Below, in pieces: positions 44,542 to 50,732 of a stretch of DNA of 64,000 nucleotides (within the stretch, counting starts at the first letter, position 1; each line of letters starts with the position of its first letter). Source of the DNA: Holosporaceae bacterium. Its GTDB lineage: Bacteria > Pseudomonadota > Alphaproteobacteria > UBA3830. Location: positions 1 to 64,000 of the forward strand of contig JAISYI010000022.1 in the NCBI GenBank assembly GCA_031269995.1. The letters are read 5' to 3'. The position numbers and the translations under genes were made by a program. Below the pieces are notes generated by a model. That model was not told the origin of the DNA, made no database searches, and saw only the letters and a list, made by a program, of their open reading frames with translations.

Positions 44542-47812
<3,271 letters not shown>

Positions 47813-48059: not shown

Positions 48060-48335
48060 ATGTCGGGTTGTTTGGTTGTTTTAGTTGAGTTCATGTTTGG
48101 CTTGAGTATGTTTACTAATGCAGTGCTGTTTATCCCACAAGCCTTGAAAGTGTATAAAACGAAAGATACAGGAGGGTTATCTGTTGTAACCTTTGCCGGG
48201 TTTAATTTTATACAAATTGTCACGATTGCGCATGCGTATATTCATCGGGATTGGATTCTAATGGGCGGATATATTTTTAGCCTTGTATTTTCCGGATTTA
48301 CCACTGCGCTAATCCTCAAGTACAAAAAACAGTAG
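48060..48335 (+). CDS. PQ-loop / SemiSWEET-type small transporter
   Basis: 91 residues with three membrane helices (about 4-24, 36-58 and 64-86), the half-size unit of SWEET sugar transporters, which works as a dimer. The PQ motif is FIPQALKVYKTKDTGGLS (P26-Q27). Sugars are the usual substrates of SemiSWEETs, but PQ-loop proteins also carry amino acids. The ATG at 48060 follows GGGAAGTGG; the frame could extend to 48027. The stop is 15 bases before the hybrid kinase gene, so the two form an operon and transport and sensing may be linked. Confidence 0.82.
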   Translation: MSGCLVVLVEFMFGLSMFTNAVLFIPQALKVYKTKDTGGLSVVTFAGFNFIQIVTIAHAYIHRDWILMGGYIFSLVFSGFTTALILKYKKQ

Positions 48336-48350
48336 TAATGGAGTTGCACA

Positions 48351-50732
48351 ATGAGCAATACAGAACGTAGAAGTAGTTTTGGTGAGTCAGGCAGCAAGCA
48401 AGAGCACATAGAGTCTGTTATAGCAATGTTTCGCAATTTTTCCCCAGAGGTACCTGTAAAAAACGCGGTGGTATATTTCTGGGAAAGTCATAATAGGAAT
48501 CCTGATGATAAAAAAAGAACTCAGGCCACAGTAGATTTAATTCATAAAGAATTTGACCTATCGACCTGTGAAAAGTACGAAATTCGCACTGGATATCTCA
48601 GTCGGTACGATTATCTTCCAAGGCAGCTTAAAGAATGTACAGAAGAGGAGGTTAAGCAAGCGATTATAAGAGGAGAGAAGGAACAAGATGATTGGATAGA
48701 ACGATGTAGCCCAGATCTTTCGGGCTTCTTAAAAGTGGATTGGTGGAAGTGTATTTCCCCGCAGGACAATCCACACTATGAAAATTGTAGAAATTTGGTA
48801 CTAGATAAAATAAAGAGTGATGCAGACTTTGCGGCCGCATTTGCAAAAAGCGTCAGTGAATTTGCAGAGACCCATGACATAGATGAAAGTAATGGACATT
48901 TATATATCGTAGAAGAGACATCTTGGATACTAACGCTTCCGTTGCAGAATCTAAACAAACCAGTATACCTGCTACACATAGGAAGTGCTACCAGCGCCGT
49001 GGTTGCAATGTTTCATTACTTCCCAAACCTACAGAAGGCGGTGCGTTGGTTAGCTCCGCGCTTCACCCATGGTATCTATGCAAACGTCTCCGAGTTTCTG
49101 CTTGATTATAGAAATGCGACCCATGCAGGGCATTCCTATGCGATGGAGGATAGGGATGCAGTAAGGGAGATAACTCTTTTCAAGAAGGACGAAGATGATG
49201 CACAAGCGGGTATGCGCAAGCAGTTGGAAGAAGAGCAAGCCAAAAACGAATTGCTACAATCCATCATTGGAAAGATCCCTGGACATGTTTATTGGCTAGA
49301 TTGTAATCATATATATCAGGGATGTAATAATTTACAGGCTGAACAGCTTAGATTAACCGCTAGTAGCGATATTATTGGAAAAAGAAATTGTGATTTACAC
49401 GACACTGAAGAAGCAAACAAGTTAGATGATATAAATAAAAAAGTCATGGAGACTGGACAAGAGAATGAGATTGAAGAATCAATTTGCGTACGGGGCAAAA
49501 AGCGGAACTATCTATCGAAAAAAGCTCCACTGGTAGATCGGAGAGGAAAGGTAATCGGGCTGCTAGGGTTATCCATCGATATAACCGATCGCAAGAAAGC
49601 AGAGGAGTTGAAAATGCTAAGCAAACTTCAGGAAGAGAAACTCGAAGGACAGTTGGAGCTTCAGAAGTTTGTAGCAAGTGTCGCCCATGACATAACTTCG
49701 CCTCTTGTTAGTCTGAAGTGTTTCGCGAAAACTTGCATCAATGTACCGGAAGATCAGCGGACTTTCCTCATAAGCATTGTGACAAGCATTCAGAACATTA
49801 CTAGCGACTTACTAAACCGCCATATGAAAGAGCAGAAATCTCTATGTGCAGAGAGGATGCAACATCTCCTCGTTCATTTAGCTCTGCAGGAAGTAATCGA
49901 CCAAAAGAAACATCGCTACAATGATATGGAAATGAAATTTCACTACTCATACGGAGATGACACTAAGTTCACTTTCGTCAAAATTGATGTATCGAATTTC
50001 AGTCGTATGATATCAAACCTGATAAACAATGCCGTCGAGGCGTATGATGGCAAGCCTGGAGAAATTCAAATTTTTCTAGACCAGCAGGATCAGCGTGTAC
50101 GAATTGTGATAAAGGATAAAGGAAAAGGGATGCCACAAGTAATTGTGGATAAAATTAATCGAGGAGAAAAAATAGAGACGACAAAGCAGTTTGGGCATGG
50201 CATCGGGTTAGCCCAAATAACAAGTACGGTCAAACTATATAAAGGCAAAATATTCGTTGAATCAACCGAAGGAATGGGAACAACCTTCAACATTTCCTTC
50301 CCAGCCACTGGACGACCGGAATGGATGGTAGAACGGGTTCTGCTGCCAAAGGGAAGTATCGTGGTGGTGGTGGACGATGAGGAGGTAATTTACCATACGT
50401 GGAGAACGCTTTTAAAAGAACTAGACGTAGAGTTGAAATTCTTTTCCAATGCCAAAGAGGCTGTTGATTTCCTTGAAGGAGTAAAGCGTAACGATACCTT
50501 CCTTCTTGCCGACCAGGAGTTAAAAAGTAGTGAAATAAGTGGGCTGCTGCTGATACAACAGAGTAAAATGAAAAACAGGGCAATCATTGTGACGAATAGT
50601 TATGATGACAAAGATTTGCAAGAAGCAGCAGAACAATCAGGAGTAAAGATACTCCCGAAACAATTAATGTTGGATATCCCCGTAGAAGAAGCAGAGATGG
50701 AAATGGTTCAGTGCGCAGTAGGTGGGGAGTAG
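48351..50732 (+). CDS. Cytoplasmic hybrid histidine kinase with cyclodipeptide-synthase-like N-terminal domain
   Basis: 793 residues without membrane helices. Order: an unassigned N-terminal domain (about 30-262), a coiled linker (280-302), PAS (305-415), HisKA with His446 in SVAHDITSPL, HATPase (NLINNAVEAYD 556-566, KDKGKGMP 588-595, GHGIGLAQ 615-622), and a C-terminal receiver with Asp675/Asp676, phospho-acceptor Asp721 and Lys770. Kinase and receiver residues are all intact. The N-terminal domain matches the motif spacing of tRNA-dependent cyclodipeptide synthases (CDPS; for example WES46HN, NPHY 140-143, SWILTLP 191-197, RFTHG 237-241). The CDPS catalytic Glu before LP is Thr. No DNA-binding domain, so output passes by phosphotransfer. 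Confidence 0.85.
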   Translation: MSNTERRSSFGESGSKQEHIESVIAMFRNFSPEVPVKNAVVYFWESHNRNPDDKKRTQATVDLIHKEFDLSTCEKYEIRTGYLSRYDYLPRQLKECTEEEVKQAIIRGEKEQDDWIERCSPDLSGFLKVDWWKCISPQDNPHYENCRNLVLDKIKSDADFAAAFAKSVSEFAETHDIDESNGHLYIVEETSWILTLPLQNLNKPVYLLHIGSATSAVVAMFHYFPNLQKAVRWLAPRFTHGIYANVSEFLLDYRNATHAGHSYAMEDRDAVREITLFKKDEDDAQAGMRKQLEEEQAKNELLQSIIGKIPGHVYWLDCNHIYQGCNNLQAEQLRLTASSDIIGKRNCDLHDTEEANKLDDINKKVMETGQENEIEESICVRGKKRNYLSKKAPLVDRRGKVIGLLGLSIDITDRKKAEELKMLSKLQEEKLEGQLELQKFVASVAHDITSPLVSLKCFAKTCINVPEDQRTFLISIVTSIQNITSDLLNRHMKEQKSLCAERMQHLLVHLALQEVIDQKKHRYNDMEMKFHYSYGDDTKFTFVKIDVSNFSRMISNLINNAVEAYDGKPGEIQIFLDQQDQRVRIVIKDKGKGMPQVIVDKINRGEKIETTKQFGHGIGLAQITSTVKLYKGKIFVESTEGMGTTFNISFPATGRPEWMVERVLLPKGSIVVVVDDEEVIYHTWRTLLKELDVELKFFSNAKEAVDFLEGVKRNDTFLLADQELKSSEISGLLLIQQSKMKNRAIIVTNSYDDKDLQEAAEQSGVKILPKQLMLDIPVEEAEMEMVQCAVGGE

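Follow-up and report, generated by a model that had tools for sequence, protein, structure and literature searches.

An N-terminal domain homologous to cyclodipeptide synthases (CDPSs) was found in a hybrid histidine kinase encoded in the window, i.e., the whole 64,000-nucleotide stretch of Holosporaceae bacterium DNA analyzed here, and this homology was regarded as close to certain. The domain, referred to as the WESH domain, is probably a divergent CDPS, which would make the protein one form of a synthase-sensor module; this reading was adopted with caution. The best explanation of the data is that the Holosporaceae-like family possesses a cytoplasmic PAS-histidine-kinase-receiver chassis, which is coupled by fusion or through the next gene to (mostly cyclic) dipeptide-type synthases, these being CDPSs of three branches or A-T-R nonribosomal peptide synthetases (NRPSs). 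The window bacterium is a tiny organism akin to protist endosymbionts, and its genome comprises 848 kb in 24 contigs.

Architecture of the window kinase

The kinase gene (48351..50732, + strand) encodes 793 aa in the order CDPS-like domain, PAS, HisKA, HATPase_c, and receiver, and both the coordinates and the layout given in the original prediction were correct. Pfam matches were obtained for PAS_4 (residues 327–415), HisKA (437–483), HATPase_c (548–653), and Response_reg (671–772), with the HisKA and receiver scores lying below the Pfam cut-offs. Over residues 1–278, no Pfam match was found, and NCBIfam and a single-sequence PDB search with the N-terminal domain returned nothing, in agreement with the earlier statement that residues 30–262 match no standard sensor. 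The full-length AlphaFold model consisted of the CDPS-like domain (20–265), a long helix, PAS, kinase, and receiver. The helix, residues 268–308 (49152..49274, +), links the CDPS-like domain to PAS and was of low confidence at 276–291. No membrane segment was seen by eye in the 793-aa protein.

The PAS domain covers about residues 312–415 (49284..49595, +; PF08448, E 8e-8) and is common to the kinases coupled to other synthases. It is followed by the DHp and HATPase_c core (49596..50309, +; PF00512 below cut-off, PF02518 E 7e-19), in which His446 in AHDITSPL, the N-box NLINNAVEA, and the G-boxes DKGKGMP and GHGIGL are conserved in the homologues. The receiver domain, residues 671–772 (50361..50666, +; PF00072 E 8e-7, just below cut-off), contains Asp675/676, the phospho-acceptor Asp721, and Lys770, as checked in the alignment. 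Thus, the HisKA histidine, the N and G boxes, and the receiver Asp and Lys of a hybrid histidine kinase were all present. Elsewhere in the window, a 300-aa ORF at 44542-45444 (-) without a Pfam match resembled FkbM-type methyltransferases by eye.

Fold and profile evidence for a CDPS domain

The structure of the WESH domain (residues 19–276; 48405..49178, +) was predicted by AlphaFold from 14 sequences of the window genome and its relatives (set A2), giving a model with a pLDDT of 93.5 and a pTM of 0.88. When this model was compared with the PDB using Foldseek, the best 33 of 645 matches were all CDPSs. The top match was the Fluoribacter dumoffii enzyme (5OCD; E 9.4e-10, TM 0.66 by query and 0.75 by target), followed by those of Nocardia brasiliensis and Rickettsiella grylli and then by AlbC, Rv2275, and YvmC. 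The HUP/Rossmann fold with CDPS topology spanned the entire domain. Tyrosyl-tRNA synthetases appeared only from E 3.7e-4, ranked behind nearly all CDPSs, and no HIGH motif was found in the window sequence, so the domain was not identified as a class Ic aminoacyl-tRNA synthetase. The structure-based comparison with CDPS and class Ic synthetase folds that had been suggested as a check was therefore passed over the whole domain.

Profile comparison provided the second line of evidence. Using hhalign, the WESH profile was matched to a profile of divergent CDPS-like proteins of other alphaproteobacteria, which are paired with helix-turn-helix (HTH) regulators (set A4), with a probability of 94.7 and E 6e-8, and the A4 profile in turn matched solved CDPSs at E 1e-35 (5OCD). 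Direct comparison of the WESH branch with the canonical CDPS-kinases described below was not significant, and that with a third branch (A5) was weak (E 0.0085); hence, both links run via A4. The Pfam CDPS model PF16715 did not match the WESH branch, and no CDPS was found when the PDB was searched with the A2 profile. A PF16715 scan of 400 genomes of the phylum was empty, but its own control was likewise silent, so that the scan carries no weight as evidence of absence. The kinship between the WESH domain and CDPSs was visible only with profiles and structure and not in single-sequence searches. Accordingly, the CDPS-like domain proposed originally from sequence landmarks was borne out beyond chance by Foldseek (E 9e-10) and profile (E 6e-8) evidence.

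Catalytic residues and substrate pocket

Ser37, Tyr178, Glu182, and Tyr202 are almost strictly conserved among active CDPSs (PMC7566563). By hhalign, the first three have counterparts in the WESH domain. Ser46 (48486..48488, +) was aligned with the GxS serine of CDPSs and corresponds to the acyl-accepting catalytic Ser37 of AlbC, as had been predicted. Tyr185-x3-Glu189 (48903..48917, +) corresponds to Tyr178-x3-Glu182, with YIVEE aligned with YLLEE of the CDPS-like proteins. The spacing between Ser and Glu was 143 in the WESH set and in the A4 proteins alike. From the comparison of spacings, Tyr206 is the probable counterpart of Tyr202 and, together with His209 (48966..48977, +), is invariant; Tyr206 lies at Glu+17, which is the XYP spacing, and His209 at Glu+20, the NYH position. 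The tetrad Ser46/Tyr185/Glu189/Tyr206 was invariant in all 14 homologues. As 39 of the 258 columns were invariant, the probability that four random columns would all be invariant is 4.6e-4.

These alignments changed one part of the original prediction. The landmark motifs it listed are present in the window sequence; however, SWILTLP (191–197), which had been taken as the counterpart of YVIAELP, is not so, since this role belongs to YIVEE (185–189). The supposed replacement of the catalytic Glu by Thr arose because SWILTLP was aligned with AELP, whereas both Glu189 and Tyr185 are in place in all 14 sequences.

The residue following Tyr206 was Leu or Ile in 14 of 14 sequences, where XYP enzymes would have Pro and NYH enzymes His. 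As neither subfamily signature (Pro203, or Asn40/His203) was found in the 14 WESH sequences, the domain was filed in neither subfamily. Moreover, Trp44, two residues before Ser46, was near-invariant in the WESH homologues. This is the P1-lining position, numbered 35 in AlbC (PMC5816076) and occupied by Leu32 in the Nocardia enzyme (PMC13062777), and because of this Trp the P1 pocket may be filled. In XYP CDPSs, the basic strands beta2 and beta7 bind the acceptor stem of the tRNA. The net charge of the matching regions in the WESH domain was only slightly positive and could not be separated from that of the reference set, and the net charge of the whole domains was likewise uninformative.

Homologues and three CDPS branches

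Within the window genome, the WESH domain has one paralogue with 55% identity, located in a second WESH kinase (G000:C8:14265-15047; L020:3739-6135) that lacks an adjoining SemiSWEET gene. Nine further genomes of the Holosporaceae-like family contain relatives, and in nearly all of these the domain is likewise followed by the PAS-kinase-receiver part (A1). When 385 genomes of the class were searched with the profile, the domain was detected in this family only, and no relatives were found on the plasmids and viral contigs searched. One candidate for a stand-alone WESH domain (L031) was rejected; being situated at the end of a contig, it is probably a truncated or disrupted gene.

Canonical CDPSs were detected by a Pfam search over the order in three genomes of the Holosporaceae-like family. 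Two of these form a single protein with this kinase (L042, 747 aa, CDPS E 1e-57; L054, 718 aa, CDPS E 2e-44), while L052 and L053 encode the CDPS separately, immediately before the kinase gene. In another family, the CDPS likewise immediately precedes the kinase (L043, L108, and L109). At a further locus of that other family (L110:2811-3589), an interrupted and apparently broken CDPS reading frame was observed beside an apparently intact PAS kinase.

The third branch (A5) was uncovered by searching with the kinase half. Its domain had no Pfam match, and its significant PDB matches were XYP CDPSs only (5MLP, E 1.7e-7). It keeps the Ser, Glu, and Tyr-Pro residues, with Phe replacing Tyr178, in the motifs ISxxCxSQTG, FxLEEC, and VYPM. 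Members were located at the N-terminus of the PAS kinase (L092, L096, L097, L098, L102-L107, L113, L115, L116, and L118), with one to four copies per genome; the branch occurs in 25 genomes and was kinase-fused wherever a full frame was read. Taken together, the three branches were present in 31 of 41 sampled genomes of the Holosporaceae-like family and absent from the nine sampled genomes of the order outside it. The window kinase is thus not a lone oddity but one of a family of CDPS-kinase combinations. The earlier remark that no kinase of this layout had been described held for the literature searched. A degenerate, split PAS kinase in one genome (L114:3230-4651, G001) suggests gene loss in progress.

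In the other alphaproteobacteria, an HTH_3 regulator gene is followed, often with overlap, by a divergent CDPS-like gene of set A4 (L044:1734-3225, L045:2355-3873, L046:5685-7108, and L047:4389-5613). Such an adjoining regulator was seen in these four loci, which are all those with a visible neighbor, and the pairs constitute a second type of CDPS-regulator pair.

Domain exchange and nonribosomal partners

When 37 kinase halves were placed on a maximum-likelihood tree, the classes of N-terminal domain came out intermingled, with at least 13 class changes; the starred branches force at least five changes for the window class and at least four for the third class, these counts being rough because the bootstrap had not fully settled. 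Exchange of the N-terminal domain has thus recurred across the tree.

For two kinases without a CDPS domain, the gene immediately upstream encodes an NRPS with AMP-binding, carrier, and reductase domains. One of these NRPSs is complete (L112:1019-5806, 1596 aa), has in addition a formyltransferase domain and a weak condensation match, and accompanies the kinase at L101:2314-4209. In the other case (L099:3-4069), a formyltransferase/A-T-reductase NRPS, whose 5' end is cut by the contig (L099/L111), is followed by the PAS kinase. Considering these neighbors together with the CDPS fusions and CDPS neighbors, the partner of the PAS kinase usually appears to be an enzyme predicted to make a small peptide product. 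At L100:389-2790, a methyltransferase gene overlaps the 5' end of the gene for a further PAS kinase of this type that has no CDPS domain.

SemiSWEET neighbor

A SemiSWEET/PQ-loop transporter gene of 91 aa, counted from the ATG at 48060 (48060..48335, +; PF04193 E 1.7e-7; SemiSWEET_2 E 5e-6, below the cut-off of that model), ends 15 bp upstream of the window kinase and is its probable operon partner. In each of the three branches, a SemiSWEET gene was found immediately before some of the kinases, namely, those of the window and L030 for the WESH branch, L052 and L054 for the canonical branch, and L097/L150, L115, L118, L148, and L149 for the third. The 41 relatives contained 15 strong SemiSWEETs, and 8 of the 13 with resolvable neighbors were directly upstream of CDPS-type kinases. 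The linkage was significant at p below 1e-12, given a background of 0.5–1% assumed from gene counts. On the other hand, 12 of 14 WESH kinases had no adjoining SemiSWEET, and several SemiSWEETs stand alone. Independently of sequence similarity, the linkage ties the WESH domain functionally to true CDPSs.

Proposed mechanism and alternatives

In the proposed module, charged tRNAs would supply the CDPS domain with aminoacyl groups, which it would transfer to Ser46 before releasing a cyclic dipeptide, or it would at least engage its substrates. The adjoining PAS domain would bind the cyclic dipeptide of its own cell, and possibly a product of neighboring cells or one relayed by SemiSWEET. PAS occupancy would then set the kinase, with phosphate passing via His446 to the attached receiver, and the circuit would report either the supply of charged tRNA and amino acids or a self-made signal. 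In its full form, the proposal is a circuit within one polypeptide, in which a tRNA-dependent dipeptide synthase is joined to a kinase sensing its product, and the synthase is swapped among CDPS branches and NRPSs to give private cyclic-dipeptide signals in protist-associated bacteria. This full form is offered tentatively, with slightly less assurance than the identification of a divergent CDPS in a synthase-sensor module. Weighing against the module are the missing PF16715 match, the non-significant direct comparison with the canonical CDPS-kinases, Trp44, the Leu/Ile after Tyr206, the Phe at the Tyr178 position of the third branch, and the many WESH kinases without an adjoining SemiSWEET.

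The main rival is that the WESH domain is a retired enzyme used as a sensor, as the original prediction held; the fold and substrate-binding residues would be kept without peptide-bond formation, and the kinase would report the occupancy by aminoacyl-tRNA, an amino acid, or a cyclic dipeptide. The reused fold itself was confirmed by Foldseek, but the domain need no longer be read as a passive sensor, as the catalytic Glu is retained. The Trp at the P1-lining position, the missing His/Pro signature next to Tyr206, the strong divergence from catalytic CDPSs, and the connection to the kinase through a helix are consistent with retirement. However, a pure binder has no obvious need of the invariant Ser-Tyr-Glu-Tyr set, and equivalent kinases are equipped with complete NRPSs or with canonical CDPSs that are probably active. 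Retirement was considered unlikely, though a serious competitor to the synthase-sensor module. The related idea of sensing by PAS only, with an inert N-domain, was dropped because few parts of the protein are as well conserved as the WESH domain (A1).

A less probable alternative is a regulated enzyme, whose dipeptide would be exported via SemiSWEET to hosts or competitors while the kinase controls or times the enzyme without sensing the product. The SemiSWEET linkage would suit such export; however, sugars are the known cargo of SemiSWEETs, no such gene is present at most kinase loci, and the HTH regulators paired with similar synthases elsewhere point to product sensing, which makes this alternative improbable despite the proposal that CDPSs of intracellular bacteria act on hosts (PMC2922099). 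Lastly, an unrelated Rossmann or HUP domain merely resembling a CDPS would explain the lack of direct Pfam or single-sequence matches, but it is close to refuted, given that CDPSs outrank every other HUP fold in Foldseek, that an independent profile link leads to the CDPS-like proteins, and that the WESH domain occupies the slot and SemiSWEET neighborhood of true CDPSs.

CDPSs are known as secondary-metabolite enzymes. Here, small genomes (approximately 0.85 Mb) in which little else is kept wire them straight to a sensor kinase, which points to a signaling role for CDPSs. The question of why intracellular bacteria keep CDPSs has been raised before (PMC2922099). The window kinase family offers a candidate receptor for cyclic dipeptides that can be tested directly, brings two CDPS branches invisible to Pfam, and illustrates how a single kinase chassis can exchange its input domain between synthases of equivalent function.

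Comparison with known systems

CDPSs were described as only stand-alone proteins without fusions by Aravind et al. 2010 (PMC2922099), and fusions with methyltransferase, P450, and ABC-transporter domains were reported by Gondry et al. 2018 (PMC5816076). In these described fusions the CDPS is also N-terminal, whereas the partners are tailoring or transport domains and not a signaling kinase. Cyclic dipeptides have been considered as quorum signals recognized by LuxR-type receptors (PMC13220807), but a kinase receptor linked to a CDPS was not found. Likewise, no paper combining a CDPS and a histidine kinase in one system was found in the open-access journal literature searched. These comparisons suggest that the synthase-plus-sensor module is of an undescribed type.

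The WESH domain shares with the XYP CDPSs of F. dumoffii (5OCD), N. brasiliensis (5MLQ/9I5M), and R. grylli (5MLP) the whole-domain fold, the Ser, the Tyr-x3-Glu, and the Tyr at XYP spacing. It differs from them in its identity of only ~17–19%, the Trp before the serine, the Leu/Ile in place of Pro after Tyr206, and the fusion to a histidine kinase, and any synthase activity is putative. The canonical PF16715 CDPSs of the sister genomes (L042, L054, L052, and L053) are joined to the same kinase chassis and, in L052 and L054, have the same SemiSWEET neighbor; unlike the WESH domain, they belong to an NYH-like branch, and their direct profile similarity to it is not significant. The kinase half follows the PAS-HisKA-HATPase-receiver order of the ArcB/AtoS/NahK-type hybrid PAS kinases, which gave the best NCBIfam scores, but it scores far below the cut-offs of those families, and they have no CDPS input domain. 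A further parallel is given by autoinducer synthase-receptor pairs such as LuxI-LuxR and CqsA-CqsS/LqsA-LqsS, in which a small-molecule synthase is coupled to its cognate regulator. Compared with these, the present module is one polypeptide or operon, its synthase is a predicted tRNA-dependent peptide maker, and its role would be in signaling.
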